The notes under the pieces were generated by a model, which worked only from the letters and a program-made list of their open reading frames with translations, searched no databases and was not told the DNA's origin. 64,000 nt of DNA from the NCBI RefSeq assembly GCF_000469135.2, contig NZ_CP048117.1, positions 859,001-923,000 of the forward strand, in the 5' to 3' direction. Origin of the DNA: Bacillus sp. SB49. Its GTDB lineage: Bacteria; Bacillota; Bacilli; Bacillales; Halobacillaceae. This document shows, piece after piece, positions 47,195 through 61,922 of the stretch (the stretch's first letter is position 1; every line of letters begins with the position of its first letter). A program made the position numbers and the translations under genes.

Positions 47195-47223
47195 TTGACT
47201 TTGAAGTCTGAATTTTATAGACT
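47195..47223 (+). promoter_or_regulatory. trp operon promoter
   Basis: TTGACT (47195-47200) with TAGACT (47218-47223) at 17 bases, or TATAGA (47216-47221) at 15. Transcription would start near 47230 and give a leader of about 195 bases before trpE. Confidence 0.5.
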
Positions 47224-47247
47224 GTGAGAAAGCTTAATAAGCAAGTT

Positions 47248-47300
47248 GAGATGAGAATGAGTTGAGTTGAGGTTAGAGTGAGCTGAGCCGAGAGAGCGAG
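47248..47300 (+). promoter_or_regulatory. TRAP-binding site in the trp leader
   Basis: Eleven (G/U)AG triplets begin at 47248, 47253, 47259, 47264, 47269, 47274 (UAG), 47280, 47285, 47290, 47294 and 47298, spaced 2-3 bases (the last two by 1). This equals the eleven RNA-binding sites of the TRAP (MtrB) ring. In B. subtilis TRAP with tryptophan binds such repeats. Confidence 0.85.
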
Positions 47301-47380
47301 GAATCGTCGGACGAAGGAGCTGACCGATTGCCTGGCCGTAAGTAAGTATTCAATGACAACCCCCCACTCGTTTTATCACC

Positions 47381-47426
47381 CTCAACGTCTCATTCTCCAT
47401 ACTACTATGGAGAGGTGAGCCTTTTT
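47381..47426 (+). promoter_or_regulatory. Switch hairpin over the trpE ribosome-binding site
   Basis: CTCATTCTCCAT (47389-47400) pairs with ATGGAG-A-GGTGAG (47407-47419; one bulge, two G-U) and hides the trpE site GGAGAGGTGAG; five T follow (47422-47426). Alternatively CTCATTCTC (47389-47397) pairs perfectly with GAGAATGAG in the TRAP site (47253-47261), and CTCAA with TTGAG. The two structures exclude each other. Confidence 0.7.
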
Positions 47427-48939
47427 GACTACTTTTGAAGCATTTCAAAGCGATGCATCCCTGTATCGCACCATCCCAATTACTAAATCCTTTTACACGG
47501 ATACGTTAACACCTATCCACATGTTTCACGCTTTAAATAACGAAGCGGTATATATGCTCGAGAGCCAGGATCCGGAATCACCCTGGTCGAACTATTCTTT
47601 TATTGGCTTAGATCCAATGATTGAATTAAAAGAAATGGACGGCACGTTCTATATTACAGATTTCCAGACGAAGCAGGAAGAAGAAGCGCCTTCTTTCAAA
47701 GCAGCTTACGAAAAGGTGTTGGAGGATCTGCAGGTGAAACCGGCTGAAGATAGCGATCTCCCTTTTAAAGGAGGAGGTGTCGGCTATATCAGCTATGACG
47801 CAATATCCGATTATGAACCGGTTCCAAGAGCCGAGGAAGCTGGAAGTCTTGCGAATTATCATCTGCTGTTCTGCCAGACTTTAATCGCTTATCATCACAA
47901 AACGAAGCAGACGACGATCTTGTCCTTTGCAAGGCTCGGAAGCGGCGGTGAAGAGAACCTGACAAGTGCCTATGAAGATACACTGGGAAGGATCGAGAAA
48001 GTCCAATCCCGCTTGGCGAAGGCTCCTGGTCTGCCGGACTTGATGATGCAGGAAGAGGCGGAGTCTGAAGAAGAGATGGAATGGGACAGCAATTATGAAC
48101 CGGACAAATTCAAAGCGGACGTGGAACGTATTAAAGAATACATTCTGGCGGGTGATGTCTTCCAGACTGTACTTTCCCAGCGCTTCCACACGGTAACGGA
48201 CAGGAGCGGATTTGAACTGTACCGCGTTCTTCGGAATGTGAATCCATCCCCGTACATGTTCTATTTGAAGATGGGCGGCGTGGAAGTCATCGGAAGCTCT
48301 CCGGAGCGCCTTCTTGAAGTAAGAGACAGGAAGCTTGAAATCCATCCCATAGCAGGAACAAGGAAGAGGGGCCGGACCAAGGAGGAAGATGACCGCCTTG
48401 CAGAAGAGCTGATGAAGGATGAAAAGGAACTGGCTGAGCACCGGATGCTTGTGGATCTGGCCAGAAACGATATTGGTCGAGTAGCCGAATACGGATCGGT
48501 TCAGGTCAGTGAATATATGACGATTGGTCGTTTCTCCAAAGTGATGCACATCATAAGTAAAGTGATTGGTGAACTGAAAGAGGATGTATCACCGATTGAT
48601 GCCCTTATTTCTTCCTTTCCGGCAGGAACGTTATCCGGAGCTCCGAAAGTCCGCGCTATGCAGATATTGCGGGAGCTCGAACCGACTCCGAGAAATCTAT
48701 ACGGCGGCGGCATCTTATACCTCGGGTTCGACGGTAACATCGATTCATGTATAACGATCCGGACGATGACGCTTATGGGACGGGATCTATACGTCCAGGC
48801 AGGGGCAGGAGTGGTGGCTGACTCCGATCCCGAAGCAGAGTATCAGGAGACGCTGAACAAAGCGAGTGCTTTGAAGCGGACGATTCAATTAGCAGAGAAG
48901 GTTTTTGAGAAGAGCGGAGAAGGAGTGGAGATGAGATGA
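47425..48939 (+). CDS. trpE: Anthranilate synthase component I TrpE
   Basis: A 504-residue chorismate-binding enzyme. N-terminal domain 1-150; C-terminal core with DVFQTVLSQRF, NPSPYMFYLKMGGVEVIGSSPERLLEV, PIAGTRKRG, LVDLARNDIGRV, SSFPAGTLSGAPKVRAMQILRELEPTPRNLYGGGI. It converts chorismate plus glutamine-derived ammonia to anthranilate with TrpG. Feedback-site residues LLES-like (AVYMLESQDPESPWSNYSFIG, 35-55) are present. TTG start 47425 follows GGAGAGGTGAG, which lies in the leader hairpin. First of seven trp genes; ends overlapping trpD by four bases. Confidence 0.95.
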   Translation: MTTFEAFQSDASLYRTIPITKSFYTDTLTPIHMFHALNNEAVYMLESQDPESPWSNYSFIGLDPMIELKEMDGTFYITDFQTKQEEEAPSFKAAYEKVLEDLQVKPAEDSDLPFKGGGVGYISYDAISDYEPVPRAEEAGSLANYHLLFCQTLIAYHHKTKQTTILSFARLGSGGEENLTSAYEDTLGRIEKVQSRLAKAPGLPDLMMQEEAESEEEMEWDSNYEPDKFKADVERIKEYILAGDVFQTVLSQRFHTVTDRSGFELYRVLRNVNPSPYMFYLKMGGVEVIGSSPERLLEVRDRKLEIHPIAGTRKRGRTKEEDDRLAEELMKDEKELAEHRMLVDLARNDIGRVAEYGSVQVSEYMTIGRFSKVMHIISKVIGELKEDVSPIDALISSFPAGTLSGAPKVRAMQILRELEPTPRNLYGGGILYLGFDGNIDSCITIRTMTLMGRDLYVQAGAGVVADSDPEAEYQETLNKASALKRTIQLAEKVFEKSGEGVEMR

Positions 48940-49958
48940 AAGAGCTATTAAATAGAGTTGTATCAGGGGAAGTAATGGATGAGCAGCAGGCGTTCGAAAC
49001 GATGAACGGTATCATGCAGGGCGAGGTTACGACAGCCCAGTTGACGAGTCTTTTAAGCATCATGCGTTTCCGCGGGGAGACAGTGGAAGAAATGACAGGA
49101 TTCGTCCGGGCGATGCGTGCCAACATGACGAAGCTGGATGTCCATGATTCCACCATCATCGACACATGCGGTACCGGAGGGGACGGTGCATCTACGTTCA
49201 ATATCTCCACGGCCGTATCGATCGTGCTTGCAAGTATGGGTGTCAAAGTTGCCAAACACGGAAACCGAAAAGTTTCTTCCAAGAGCGGGAGCGCAGATGT
49301 ACTGGAGATGCTTGGTATTCCAATCGATACAACACCGGCAGAAGGAGCGAAGGCTCTGCAGGATAAAGGAATGACTTTCCTTTTCGCACCATTGTATCAT
49401 CAGGCAATGAAACATGCAGGCCCGGCGAGGCAGGAACTTGGATTCCGGACGATATTCAACCTCCTCGGACCTATGTCAAATCCAGCCAATGCCAAACGGC
49501 AGCTGATTGGCATTTACTCCACGGATTATGCAGAGAAGATGGCCGAAACGCTGAAAGAGCTCGGATCCGAACGAGTGCTGCTTGCTACGGGCAGAGACGG
49601 TCTGGATGAAATAACGATAACAGGCGTGACGGATATAGTTGAACTGAACGAAGGGTCTATCACCCGATATACGATCACTCCGGAAGACTTCGGGTTATCA
49701 AGGGGATCCCTTGACGATATTAAAGCATCCGAACCCTCGGAAAGCGCAGCAATCATCAAAGAGATTTTCTACGGAGAATCAAACCAAAGCGCCGTCGATA
49801 TAGTCAAAATGAACGCGGCTGCCGGCCTGTACGTGGCAGGAAAAGCTGATGACCTTCACGAAGGAGTAAAGCAGGTCGAAGAAGCTCTTCGAACAGGAGT
49901 GACCAAAGATTACTTTGAATCCATTGTAACGGAAAGGGAGAATCGTCAATATGCTTGA
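48936..49958 (+). CDS. trpD: Anthranilate phosphoribosyltransferase TrpD
   Basis: A 340-residue glycosyltransferase: DTCGTGGDGASTFNISTAVSIVLASMGVKVAKHGNRKVSSKSGSADVLEMLG (about 70-120) is the PRPP and anthranilate site; FLFAPLYHQAMKHAGPARQELGFRTIFNLLGPMSNPA follows. It transfers ribose-5-phosphate to anthranilate. ATGA overlap with trpE (4 bases) and eight-base overlap with trpC mean coupled translation. Confidence 0.95.
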   Translation: MKELLNRVVSGEVMDEQQAFETMNGIMQGEVTTAQLTSLLSIMRFRGETVEEMTGFVRAMRANMTKLDVHDSTIIDTCGTGGDGASTFNISTAVSIVLASMGVKVAKHGNRKVSSKSGSADVLEMLGIPIDTTPAEGAKALQDKGMTFLFAPLYHQAMKHAGPARQELGFRTIFNLLGPMSNPANAKRQLIGIYSTDYAEKMAETLKELGSERVLLATGRDGLDEITITGVTDIVELNEGSITRYTITPEDFGLSRGSLDDIKASEPSESAAIIKEIFYGESNQSAVDIVKMNAAAGLYVAGKADDLHEGVKQVEEALRTGVTKDYFESIVTERENRQYA

Positions 49959-50715
49959 AACCATCTTGGCAGTCAAACAGCAGGAAATTGAAAAAATGTA
50001 TTTACCGGAAGAACAAACATACAGGAAATATTCTCTGCATGAATCCTTGAAAACTTCCCCCTATAGAGCGGGACTGATCGCAGAAGTGAAAAAGGCTTCT
50101 CCGTCGAAAGGGATTATTCGTGAAGACTTTAATCCTGTGAAGATCGCGCATGATTACAATCAAGCGGGAGTCCAGGCGATTTCTGTTTTGACGGATCAGC
50201 ATTTCTTCCAGGGGCACCGGGATTACTTATCTTCCATAAAACAGGTGGTCGATGTACCCGTACTTAGGAAAGACTTCCTCATCGATCCCATACAAATCGT
50301 AGAAAGTGCTTCTATTGGAGCGGATGCGGTCCTTCTGATTGGAGAAGCGATGGAAGCACGGGCCCTGCACGAACTTTATCTGCAGGCATATGAACTTGGA
50401 ATGGAAGTGCTAGTGGAAGTGCATGGGGAAGAAACGCTGGAGGGATTGTTGAAGCAGTTCACCCCTGAAATACTCGGCATCAACAACAGGAATCTGCATA
50501 CGTTTGAAACGAAGCTTTCTCAGACAGAGCGGATGGCGAAGCTTGCTCCGGCAGAAGCTCTTCTTGTTTCGGAAAGCGGCATTTTCACGCATGACGACTT
50601 ACTTGCCGTATCCAGCTTCGGAGCAGAAGGAATCCTCGTCGGTGAATCGTTGATGAGACAGCAGGACATAGGCAAGGCTGTTCAAGTGCTGATGGAAGGG
50701 GAAGATGTCCGATGA
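49951..50715 (+). CDS. trpC: Indole-3-glycerol phosphate synthase TrpC
   Basis: A 254-residue (beta/alpha)8 enzyme. Catalytic motifs are AEVKKASPSKGIIREDF (Lys near 48), VLRKDFLIDP and LGINNRNLHTFETKL; LLVSESGIFTHDDL and GILVGESLMR close the phosphate site. It closes CdRP to indole-glycerol phosphate. Separate from TrpF, unlike the enteric TrpCF fusion. Confidence 0.95.
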   Translation: MLETILAVKQQEIEKMYLPEEQTYRKYSLHESLKTSPYRAGLIAEVKKASPSKGIIREDFNPVKIAHDYNQAGVQAISVLTDQHFFQGHRDYLSSIKQVVDVPVLRKDFLIDPIQIVESASIGADAVLLIGEAMEARALHELYLQAYELGMEVLVEVHGEETLEGLLKQFTPEILGINNRNLHTFETKLSQTERMAKLAPAEALLVSESGIFTHDDLLAVSSFGAEGILVGESLMRQQDIGKAVQVLMEGEDVR

Positions 50716-51368
50716 AGGAGCCGATTGTCAAACTGTGTGGAAACCGGTCGCTCTCGGATGTCGCCAAGACTACTTCCTCGGAAGCGACGCATTTAGGTTT
50801 CATTTTCGTCAGAAGAACGAAAAGGTATGTTCGTCCGGAAGCCGTCGCCCGCTGGATCAGGAAGATCCGGCCAAAGCAGAAGCTTGTCGGGGTTTTCATT
50901 GAACCGACACTTGAGGAACTGGAACAGATTCTTCATTTTGTTCCACTTGACGTTATACAGCTCCATGGAAACGAAACCGTATCCCAGCTCCTGCGCATTA
51001 AAGAAGCATTCGGCCTTCCGGTTTGGAAGGTCATTCATCATCAAGAGAACGGGATGAACCAAATGGAGATTTTTCAAGGAGTTGCCGACGGGTATGTGAT
51101 CGATTCTAAAGTGGATGGTCAAGCGGGCGGAACCGGCGTTCGATTCGATTGGGAAGCTGTTCCTTCCTATCAGAGCGCTGCTTATGAGCAGGGCGTTCCC
51201 TGTCTTATTGCAGGTGGAATAAGGCCGGAAAACGTGGCAGAGCTTCTTACTTACGACCCGGATGGGATCGATCTGTCCAGTGGTATCGAATCCAATGAAA
51301 CAAAAGATATCGGCAAGATTCAAGCAGTCATGAAAGAGGTGGAGCGTAATGTTGCAAGTATTACCTGA
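50712..51368 (+). CDS. trpF: Phosphoribosylanthranilate isomerase TrpF
   Basis: A 218-residue TIM-barrel isomerase. The catalytic Cys lies in [13 protein letters not shown] (near 8) and the Asp in [32 protein letters not shown] and [11 protein letters not shown] are the phosphate loops. It converts PRA to CdRP. Four-base overlap with trpC, 20-base overlap with trpB. Confidence 0.93.
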
Positions 51369-52542
51369 TATAAAAGGCCGTTTTGGTGATTTCGGAGGGA
51401 AATATGTTCCGGAAACACTGATGGGTCCCCTTCAAGAGTTGGAAGATGCATTAGATGAAGCATTGAACGATTCATCCTTCATGGAGGAGTATCACCATAT
51501 ATTAAAAGAATACGCCGGCAGACCTACTTCCCTTACCTTTGCAGATAAGATAACGGAACATCTCGGCGGGGCGAAAGTGTATCTGAAGCGGGAGGACCTG
51601 AATCATACCGGCGCCCACAAGTTGAACAATGCCGTCGGACAGGCCCTGTTGGCGAAGCGTATGGGCAAGAAGAAAATCATCGCCGAAACGGGTGCTGGCC
51701 AGCATGGCGTCGCCTCTGCAACGGTGGCGGCAAAGTTCGGTCTGGAGTGTAAAGTGTTCATGGGCGAAGAGGATATCCGCCGGCAGGAGCTTAACGTATT
51801 TAGAATGAAGCTGCTCGGCGCAGAAGTCATTTCCGTGTCAAGCGGAAACGGCACGCTTAAAGATGCGACGAACGAAGCTATACGATACTGGGTAGCCAAC
51901 TGTGAGGACCATTTTTATTTGATCGGTTCTGTCGTGGGACCTCATCCGTATCCGAAGATGGTCCGTGATTTTCAGCGTATTATTGGGGATGAATCGAAGC
52001 GGCAATTCCTTGAGGCGGAGCCGGAGCTGCCCGACCGTATTTACGCCTGCGTAGGCGGAGGAAGCAATGCTATGGGTATGTTTTATCCTTTCTTGGAAGA
52101 TGAATCGGAGTTGATCGGCGTGGAAGCGGCAGGCAAAGGGGTGGAGACACCAGAGCATGCGGCGACATTGACGAAAGGGACGCCCGGCGTCATCCATGGT
52201 TCTCTTACTTATTTGATGCAGGATGAGAATGGCCAGATTACAGAGCCGTATTCGATTTCCGCAGGACTTGATTATCCCGGAATCGGACCGGAACACGCAC
52301 ATCTTTTCCAAACGAAGCGTGTGCGTTACGAATCGATTACGGATCAGGAAGCATTGGATGCCTTGAAATTGTTGACGCAAACGGAAGGAATCATACCGGC
52401 TATTGAAAGTGCTCATGCACTTGCCCAGGCGTTCAAGGAAGCCGGGTCGATGAAACCGGAAGAAACGATTCTCATTAATTTGTCCGGTCGGGGCGACAAA
52501 GATATGGCGACATTGATGGAACACTTCCAGGAGGAGGTATGA
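51349..52542 (+). CDS. trpB: Tryptophan synthase beta subunit TrpB
   Basis: A 397-residue PLP enzyme. The PLP lysine is in [23 protein letters not shown] (about 82-105), the phosphate loop in [16 protein letters not shown] and [19 protein letters not shown] in between; standard TrpB1 length. With TrpA it condenses indole and serine to tryptophan. RBS AGAGGTGG. Confidence 0.96.
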
Positions 52543-52543
52543 C

Positions 52544-53344
52544 ATGCTTACGAAAACAGCGTTCCAAGGTAAATTGACGAAAACAGAAGACTTATTTATT
52601 CCTTTCATCGTTGCAGGTGATCCGGCCCCCCAATACACTATAGACTTTGCTCTTAGACTCCAAGCGGAAGGAGCGGACATCCTTGAACTTGGCGTCCCTT
52701 ATTCGGACCCGCTTGCAGATGGTCCGACTATCCAGCGCGCCGCCAAGCGCGCTTTGAAGAGCGGTATGTCTTTGAGAAAAGCGATAGAACTGGTCCCGGC
52801 ATTGCGGGACAACGGGGTGGAAATACCGGTTGTCATTTTCACCTACTACAATCCTGTTCTGCAGATTGGACATAAAGACTTCTTCGATAAGCTGGAAGCA
52901 AACGGAGTAGAAGGGGTGCTCATTCCTGACCTTCCATTTGAGGAGAGTGCAGAGGTACGGAGCATGGCTGAAGAGAGAGGCATTGAATTCATTTCCCTTG
53001 TCGCTCCGAACTCCGATCAACGGATCAAGCAGATTGCAGAGAATGCAAAAGGCTTTTTGTACTGCGTTTCTTCACTTGGAGTCACAGGAGAACGGAATGA
53101 CATGTCCGGAGAAGCGCTCTCCTTCATTGAAAAAGTGAGAGAACACAGCAAGGTCCCGGTTGCGGTCGGTTTCGGCATCTCCACTAACGAGCACGTGAAA
53201 CTTGTGCGTCATCATGCGGATGGAGTCATTATCGGAAGTAAAATCATCCGTTTGATCGAAGAAGAGTTGCAGCACGTAGAAGCCGGCCGTAGAGATGAAG
53301 CTCTTGATAACTTTACTAAAGGCATCCGTGACCTGGTCGAATAG
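52544..53344 (+). CDS. trpA: Tryptophan synthase alpha subunit TrpA
   Basis: A 266-residue TIM barrel. Catalytic Glu in ADILELGVPYSDPLADGPTIQRA (about 46-68) and Asp in GVLIPDLPFEE; AVGFGISTNEHV and DGVIIGSKIIRLIEE complete the phosphate site. It cleaves indole-glycerol phosphate and channels indole to TrpB. Start one base after the trpB stop. Confidence 0.95.
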   Translation: MLTKTAFQGKLTKTEDLFIPFIVAGDPAPQYTIDFALRLQAEGADILELGVPYSDPLADGPTIQRAAKRALKSGMSLRKAIELVPALRDNGVEIPVVIFTYYNPVLQIGHKDFFDKLEANGVEGVLIPDLPFEESAEVRSMAEERGIEFISLVAPNSDQRIKQIAENAKGFLYCVSSLGVTGERNDMSGEALSFIEKVREHSKVPVAVGFGISTNEHVKLVRHHADGVIIGSKIIRLIEEELQHVEAGRRDEALDNFTKGIRDLVE

Positions 53345-53378
53345 TCGCTGCCGGCACAGCTGAGAGGAGTGGAGCAGA

Positions 53379-53963
53379 GTGATATACATGATTGACCATT
53401 ATGATTCTTTCACTTATAACCTTGTGCAGTATTTAGGGGATTTGGGAGAGGAGATCATCGTCAGAAGAAACGATGAAGTATGCTTGAGTGAAATTAAAGA
53501 ATGTAACCCTGATCTGATTTTCCTTTCGCCGGGACCTTGTTCTCCGGATGAAACAGGGATGACGCTGGACGTCATCGCTGCATTCAAGGACAGCATTCCT
53601 ATATTCGGTGTCTGTCTCGGCCACCAGTCAATTGCTCAGGTGTTCGGGGGGAAGGTGGTTCGTGCAGACCGCTTAATGCACGGGAAATCATCCCTCATCC
53701 ACCATGACGGCCGTGGTATTTATGATGGATTGAATAATCCGATGGAAGTGATGCGCTATCATTCGCTGATAGTGAAGCAGGACGGAGTGCCGGAGGATTT
53801 TGAAGTCACATCGAAGACTGCGGAAGGAGAAATCATGGGAATCCGTCATAAGGCTCTTCCTATAGAGGGCGTCCAGTTCCATCCGGAATCGATCGGCACG
53901 GCAGACGGCAGGAAGCTGCTGGAGAATCTTATTAAGCAGCGTGCGAAAGCATTATTATCATAA
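53379..53963 (+). CDS. trpG: Anthranilate/aminodeoxychorismate synthase glutamine amidotransferase TrpG (PabA)
   Basis: A 194-residue class I glutaminase: MIDHYDSFTYNLVQYLGDLG at the N-terminus, nucleophile Cys in FGVCLGHQSIAQVFGG (near residue 77), and His/Glu in PIEGVQFHPESIGT. It delivers ammonia to TrpE (and probably PabB). GTG start after GAGGAG; the preferred N-terminus MIYMID fits homologues (MILMID). It is the last gene, 34 bases after trpA, whereas B. subtilis has it in the folate cluster. Confidence 0.88.
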   Translation: MIYMIDHYDSFTYNLVQYLGDLGEEIIVRRNDEVCLSEIKECNPDLIFLSPGPCSPDETGMTLDVIAAFKDSIPIFGVCLGHQSIAQVFGGKVVRADRLMHGKSSLIHHDGRGIYDGLNNPMEVMRYHSLIVKQDGVPEDFEVTSKTAEGEIMGIRHKALPIEGVQFHPESIGTADGRKLLENLIKQRAKALLS

Positions 53964-56216: not shown

Positions 56217-56289
56217 GGGGCATTAGCTCAGCTGGGAGAGCGCTACACTGGCAGTGTAGAGGTCAGCGGTTCGAGCCCGCTATGCTCCA
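56217..56289 (+). tRNA. tRNA-Ala (anticodon GGC)
   Basis: All four arms pair: acceptor GGGGCAT / ATGCTCC (one G-T), D arm GCTC/GAGC, anticodon arm CTACA/TGTAG with loop CTGGCAG (anticodon GGC at 34-36), T arm AGCGG/CCGCT with TTCGAGC. Discriminator A; CCA is not encoded. It reads alanine GCC and GCU. Isolated gene with its own promoter and terminator. Confidence 0.95.
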
Positions 56290-61462: not shown

Positions 61463-61468
61463 CCATCC

Positions 61469-61502
61469 TTAGTTTTTTATAGAGGGTGTCGCTAGAACCT
61501 CT
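61469..61502 (-). promoter_or_regulatory. preQ1-I riboswitch aptamer
   Basis: Minus strand: AGAGGTTCTAGC, then ACACCCTCTATAAAAAACTA with the A-rich tail, matching the class I preQ1 aptamer of B. subtilis queC at nearly every base. The P1 stem AGAGG/CCTCT, the CUAGC loop and the A-rich pseudoknot tail are all present. Confidence 0.92.
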
Positions 61503-61627
61503 CCTGCATCTGTCTGCAGATTTTATTCCATTGCTTCCCTTATTCTAACATGGAGCAGGTGAAAAAGGGAAGGAAAGACTTGGAGAGGTGGAATAGGCTC
61601 ATTAGTTAAAAAATTGCGATTTACCTG

Positions 61628-61655: not shown

Positions 61656-61684
61656 TATAAACATCAAGTAATAAATATGCAGGA

Positions 61685-61922
61685 TTATTCATTGAGGAAG
61701 AGAGTACGTAGGCATCGGATCTGCAGCGAGCCGGGGTTGGTGGAAGCCTGGTGATCGATTCATACGGAAACGCACTTCTGAGAAGTTCGGTGAACGATAG
61801 TAGCCGTAACCGGGAGCTCCCGTTATCAGCATTGAGTTGGTCTATTTAATTAGACAATGAGAGTGGCACCGCGGATGATAATAACGTCCGTCTCTTACCT
61901 TTAGTAGGAGACGGTTTTTTTA
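61685..61922 (+). promoter_or_regulatory. T-box riboswitch for argGH (specifier CGC, Arg)
   Basis: Stem I: GAAG (61697-61700) with CTTC (61775-61778); loop E AGTA (61703-61706) opposite GAA (61767-61769); above it CGTA/TACG; then the distal AG-bulge region AGCGAGCCGGGG...GGTGGAAGCCTGG. The codon after GAAA is CGC (61771-61773) followed by A, reading Arg. The T-box AGAGTGGCACCGCGG (61860-61874) has TGGC, matching a tRNA with discriminator G. The terminator CCGTCTC (61888-61894)/GAGACGG (61908-61914) plus seven T follows. Uncharged tRNA-Arg would favour the antiterminator. Confidence 0.88.

Follow-up and report, generated by a model that had tools for sequence, protein, structure and literature searches.

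Most of what is known of TRAP, a textbook regulator, comes from Bacillus subtilis. Its targets there include trpE, trpG and trpP, according to the accessible part of PMC11255114, and a 2026 paper, in the part available, places trpE, trpD and trpG of this species under translational repression by TRAP (PMC13170310). The leader of the B. subtilis trpEDCFBA operon, which works by attenuation as well as by hiding the trpE ribosome site, resembles the one described below in three respects: TRAP, an array of (G/U)AG triplets, and a hairpin that sequesters the Shine-Dalgarno (SD) sequence downstream of the bound site (PMC11255114, accessible part). B. subtilis TRAP can also terminate transcription without a terminator hairpin (PMC3913778, from the text available). 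The trp leader of Bacillus halodurans is, like that of Halobacillus, a TRAP leader that departs from the B. subtilis one, with 19 NAG triplets and a TRAP that is a 12-mer (PMC3184956, in part). With TRAP and tryptophan present, termination takes place at or near a weak attenuator (PMC3913778, in part).

The 64,000-nt stretch of DNA analysed here (the window) belongs to a 3.77-Mb genome whose genus is taken to be Halobacillus, the named records nearest to its trpE being Halobacillus species. From open reading frames and family scans, its trp operon has the order trpE, trpD, trpC, trpF, trpB, trpA and a trpG-type gene. Throughout the Halobacillus family, TRAP loaded with tryptophan probably controls this operon mostly through translation, via three sites on one mRNA, the separate terminator being gone. 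Compared with the B. subtilis trp leader, that of Halobacillus has no conserved separate terminator, has an extra hairpin that separates the array from the anti-SD arm, and is part of an mRNA with further arrays at trpD and trpG. Compared with the trpG, trpP and ycbK sites of B. subtilis, the Halobacillus trpG ends the trp operon, and a like array is found at trpD, inside the trpE coding sequence. If this reading is right, tryptophan could switch off protein synthesis gene by gene in one operon, and the family would let nature answer what attenuation adds to control and how an RNA-binding ring can act within coding sequence.

The operon, the sampled relatives and the TRAP gene

The operon occupies the forward strand of the window:
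47195..47223, + strand: predicted trp operon promoter of sigma-70 type, with TTGACT-17-TAGACT (consensus match 9/12)
47425..48939, + strand: trpE, anthranilate synthase component I, TTG start (TIGR00564 above cut-off)
48936..49958, + strand: trpD, anthranilate phosphoribosyltransferase, its start in an ATGA overlap with the trpE stop (TIGR01245 above cut-off)
49951..53344, + strand: trpC, trpF, trpB and trpA, names based on gene order and ORF appearance; neighbours overlap or abut
53379..53963, + strand: trpG-type glutamine amidotransferase within the trp operon, GTG start (PF00117 and TIGR00566 above cut-off)

Promoter matches of this grade (9/12) are expected by chance 0.9 times in the region, and a similar stretch is found ahead of the leader in congeners. 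The ATGA overlap of trpD start and trpE stop recurs in 40/42 loci of the clade defined below. The window also contains a T-box leader (61683-61898), a PreQ1 riboswitch (61463-61507, minus strand) and a tRNA (56217-56289).

Relatives outside the family were drawn from the 299 genomes of the order. At E 1e-120, 139 of them gave no trpE match and 160 did, 12 of these in the family; from the 148 matching genomes outside the family, 60 were fetched, hand-chosen for spread over families. Among these 60, G074, whose trpE is 65% identical, carries the array too and was grouped with the family clade, which gives 42 clade loci and 59 loci of other families. The leader alignment accordingly holds 42 sequences: 21 from the genus (window included), 20 from other genera of the family, and that of G074, which belongs to another family (f32). 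G019 had no full trpE match, and for G035 and G038 only trpG was analysed. The loci have a common ancestry and are not independent of one another. Four Salinicoccus trpE loci (L054, L055, L057 and L058), 67-69% identical to that of the window, lack any chain of at least four triplets; in these loci a trpG-like start, judged by eye, directly follows trpE.

The first-pass annotation, made from the sequence of the window, had proposed that TRAP controls the operon, with a search of the genome for the TRAP gene, mtrB, as a check. A profile search finds the gene (PF02081, E 1.1e-39), and its product matched 15 PDB sequences, all named TRAP or MtrB. Together with the conserved array and SD hairpin described below, the presence of mtrB supports TRAP control. 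The gene occurs in 44/44 family genomes. For anti-TRAP, weak matches appeared in 13/44 family genomes and none exceeded the cut-off, those listed being inside open frames of at least 373 codons.

The trpE leader

Five features lie between the promoter and the trpE start:
47248..47300, + strand: (G/U)AG array of TRAP type in the trpE leader, with spacers of 2-3 nt for 9 triplets and of 1 nt for 2 more; arrays also present in relatives
47299..47333, + strand: inner hairpin, behind the array and ahead of the anti-SD arm, predicted fold
47380..47397, + strand: arm complementary to the array (CCUCAAC and CUCAUUCUC), from the sequence; four consensus pairs GAGG/CCUC
47389..47419, + strand: trpE SD-sequestering hairpin, predicted fold; 12 consensus pairs, motif in 38/42 leaders
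47422..47426, + strand: T5 run overlapping the TTG start, from the sequence; not conserved in relatives' leaders

The array had been described as eleven triplets spaced by 2-3 nt, a number taken to fit an eleven-subunit ring. The array is real, but only nine triplets (47248-47292) form a chain at that spacing, and eleven are reached through two 1-nt spacers at the 3' end (47294, 47298). The leader thus has the about eleven (G/U)AG triplets, mostly 2-3 nt apart, of a TRAP leader. Chance does not account for it, since shuffles never reach its chain length: in 200 dinucleotide shuffles of the window at spacing 2-3, the longest chain was 3 in 104, 4 in 91, 5 in 4 and 6 in 1, and nine never occurred, while 100 shuffles at spacing 1-3 never exceeded 6. 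Across the 42 relatives' leaders, the longest run varies from 5 to 14 triplets (spacers of 1-6 nt allowed), and exactly eleven triplets as a constraint was therefore rejected. Nor can the size of the ring be deduced from the triplet count, because TRAP of B. halodurans is a 12-mer (PMC3184956, in part). No Rfam family reached its gathering score over the leader.

The complementarity between the repeats and the arm, also part of the earlier description, is present: GAGAAUGAG (47253-47261) and GUUGAGG (47266-47272) in the array are complementary to CCUCAAC (47380-47386) and CUCAUUCUC (47389-47397) in the anti-SD arm. An ungapped pairing of 8-12 bp (G-U allowed) between the arm and an upstream stretch can be drawn in 42/42 leaders, lengths that carry no chance control. 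The hairpin at 47389-47419, predicted to be strong (about -15 kcal/mol), pairs CUCAUUCUCCAUA with UAUGGAGAGGUGAG, which is the trpE SD, and is directly followed by CCTTTTT. Its motif is conserved in 38/42 leaders, in agreement with the annotated hairpin that hides the trpE ribosome-binding site. The annotation had also proposed covariation in relatives as a check, and here the hairpin gives no signal: across the 42 aligned leaders none of its 12 consensus pairs changes on both sides, so its conservation does not prove pairing. The four consensus pairs that do change on both sides all fall within the inner hairpin, which is kept in the family with altered loop and stem. A leader peptide with its start behind the inner hairpin's AAGGAG was considered and dropped, as by eye it appeared not conserved.

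How would TRAP act at this site? Its binding to the GAG/UAG array would free CUCAUUCUCCAUA to pair with UAUGGAGAGGUGAG, shutting the trpE ribosome site. In folding predictions, barring the array from pairing makes the trpE SD harder to open: the mean cost goes up from 8.1 to 14.1 kcal/mol, and the increase exceeds 0.5 in 41/42 leaders (in the leader of L018 the difference is only 0.1 kcal/mol); control blocks of equal size elsewhere add 2.7 kcal/mol on average. At equilibrium, the SD is mostly paired either way, with a mean unpaired value of 0.16 with the array free and 0.11 with it blocked (lower when blocked in 29/42), and a simple equilibrium switch at trpE is not borne out by these values. 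As the SD stays mostly paired at equilibrium whether or not the array is free, the switch either depends on co-transcriptional folding or is less strong than drawn. A switch in the leader is likely, but would be a kinetic one.

In the first-pass annotation, the classic terminator and the site-sequestering hairpin were merged into one structure. In the window, the strong hairpin and the CCTTTTT behind it favour such a merger, and a similar hairpin with a T6 tail occurs in L138, from another genus of the family. These are the only 2/42 leaders with at least five T right behind the SD hairpin, compared with 38/42 that carry the hairpin motif, and the merged terminator was rejected as a conserved design. 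The run is short, has CC before it and accompanies the TTG start; the other 20 loci of the genus have ATG at the trpE start, and six of them read CCTTTATGACC where the window reads CCTTTTTGACT. That the window's hairpin is a true merged terminator, stopping transcription at about 47426 when TRAP is bound, is accordingly given little probability. To look for a separate terminator, the region between -260 and -28 of trpE was searched for hairpins that reach -11 kcal/mol and carry a T-rich tail. One was found in 3/42 clade leaders (shuffles 20/252) vs 51/59 loci of other families (shuffles 25/354); a cut-off of -10 gives 5/42 vs 51/59, and one of -14 gives 1/42 vs 43/59. The three clade leaders that pass do so by the inner hairpin plus a T-rich stretch. 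The window's own leader has no terminator at -11 kcal/mol in that interval and, as an intrinsic terminator between array and trpE is missing, it was not filed as a full attenuator type. The evidence from these sequences reads as a separate terminator lost, not one fused with the SD hairpin.

Arrays at the trpD and trpG starts

Two further arrays lie downstream on the same predicted mRNA:
48907..48935, + strand: second TRAP-type array, 6 GAG triplets at spacing 2-3, from genome scan, sequence, conservation and synonymous test
53362..53379, + strand: third TRAP-type array, GAGagGAGtgGAGcaGAG, its last triplet overlapping the trpG GTG start

The junction array, GAGaaGAGcgGAGaagGAGtgGAGatGAG, runs up to the trpD ATG, so that it covers the trpD ribosome-binding site together with the last part of trpE; additional triplets occur at 48890, 48895, 48942 and 48953. 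Between 5 and 7 triplets are present at the junction in 42/42 clade loci; near the trpE stop of other families the longest chain is at most 3 in 58/59 loci, the exception (G044) having four. In the body of clade trpE genes, sampled as 19,017 overlapping 42-nt windows, the chain never exceeds three triplets. An additional KAGnnKAG lies 30-60 nt ahead of the trpE stop in 39/40 family loci vs 5/59 others. The GAG rhythm is left unbroken by K to T and G to R changes and by the loss of a codon. When trpE was recoded synonymously with the pooled codon usage of clade trpE, the observed chain was reached with a median p of 0.001 (highest locus 0.006; 40 loci), or 0.015 (highest 0.058; 40 loci) with the last five, SD-proximal codons fixed. 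This test covers 40/42 loci and omits L138 and L140, whose trpE frame has a different end; in L140 (G034) the frame stops at codon 430 while the leader and junction arrays remain, indicating a broken gene or an assembly error. The junction RNA is predicted to be more open than windows of the trpE body (0.59 vs 0.42), and 5% of 271 body windows reach the junction mean. Contiguous triplets are fewer at the junction than at a leader site. The junction array has the marks of a direct translational site, in that it overlaps the trpD SD and is conserved beyond coding need.

TRAP bound here would directly mask the trpD ribosome site. The site would hold trpDCFBA silent on the full-length mRNA, with trpCFBA following trpD by overlap. 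In B. subtilis, trpD repression reportedly comes about through trpE-trpD translational coupling; trpD output would be tied to trpE in both cases, the difference being that the Halobacillus array is at the trpD site itself. Among the matches listed in a literature search, in which subscription journals were thinly covered, there was no report of a TRAP site at trpD or of trp control in Halobacillus.

The trpG start is preceded by 3-8 spaced triplets in 43/43 relatives, with four or more in 39 and only 3 in four. The array overlaps the start codon, is conserved and lies between genes, as expected of a direct site. TRAP bound to it would directly mask the trpG ribosome site, as known for trpG and trpP of B. 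subtilis. The window's genome carries a trpG paralogue elsewhere, 45% identical, which adjoins a chorismate-binding gene, and no array of at least four triplets was found at the start of this folate-region pabA. In this genome, the array therefore separates trpG from pabA.

It is from sequence that we infer TRAP binding, repression, and compensation for the loss of the terminator by the extra sites. The idea of compensation is drawn from one clade and may reflect a single evolutionary event. The chances are even that three TRAP rings per mRNA, one of them in coding sequence, took the place of an ancestral attenuator already in the family's common ancestor. The operon would then have passed naturally from transcription attenuation to repression of translation at several sites, with TRAP as the regulator throughout.

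Genome scans and the mode of control

A five-triplet scan of the window's genome returned two places, the leader and the trpE/trpD junction, and a second spacing returned the leader only; no trpP site emerged from the five-triplet scans of this genome. A four-triplet pattern with 2-nt spacers found three places, including the trpG site and the leader. Across 22 Halobacillus genomes, the five-triplet pattern matched 100 times. These matches form 72 clusters, of which 18 belong to the trpE leader, 13 to the junction, 14 to trpG and 19 to trpP-like starts, while 8 lie elsewhere. One of these 8 (in G019) is also at trpG, which places 65/72 clusters at trpE, trpD, trpG or trpP-like starts. The pattern missed 8/21 junction arrays, where the spacing is 2, 2, 3, 2. 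Among the trpP-like genes, one is TrpP (PF17099, 6.6e-44) and nine more have a similar ORF behind the array; the remaining clusters were assigned via shared array sequence. Since trpE, trpG and trpP are known B. subtilis targets, a large part of the established regulon comes back in the scan, with trpD in addition. A control with the pattern reversed gave 69 matches vs 100 in the 22 genomes, and 3 vs 5, 4 vs 2 and 9 vs 3 in the window's genome. This control is not independent, because GAG reads identically backwards and pure GAG arrays match both patterns. Match counts alone do not demonstrate enrichment, so the argument rests on where the arrays lie and on their conservation.

Could the junction and trpG arrays be merely the purine-rich surroundings of SD sequences, or codon bias? 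GAG is both SD-like and a glutamate codon, the arrays touch the SD, and the backward control matches as well. Against this stand the three of the window's six junction triplets that sit upstream of the GGAG of the SD, the rhythm that survives amino-acid changes and codon losses, the synonymous test, the absence of the junction array from the 59 other-family loci, and the confinement of 65/72 clusters to four sites of which three are known TRAP targets in B. subtilis. Such an origin of the arrays is highly improbable. It is also possible, if rather unlikely, that TRAP at the leader or junction acts on transcription, by hairpin-free TRAP-induced termination or through Rho after translation stops. 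Attenuator-independent termination induced by TRAP is described for B. subtilis (PMC3913778, in the part available), several relatives have U-rich stretches between array and SD, and in 3/42 leaders the inner hairpin with its U-rich stretch qualifies as a terminator. However, the window's leader has no long U run from the inner hairpin to the anti-SD arm (the longest being TTTT), and the junction and trpG arrays cover ribosome sites, which points to translation. Mainly translational control by TRAP is thus the preferred reading. It would be the opposite of B. halodurans, which is said to regulate transcription only.

A few arrays lie outside the trp genes. In two Halobacillus genomes, arrays of seven or eight triplets run across the start of a 235-aa ORF, methyltransferase-like by eye (L284, position 1769; L285, position 1922, minus strand), and a similar array crosses an ORF start in L255 (position 1501), whose 65-aa frame has no Pfam match. 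These could be an additional TRAP target or chance. In G014, a 53-kb contig whose small ORFs look phage- or plasmid-like by eye carries three more arrays (L283, positions 2302, 3430 and 4516). Each has five or six triplets, they all fall inside 2.3 kb, and two of them cross ORF starts.
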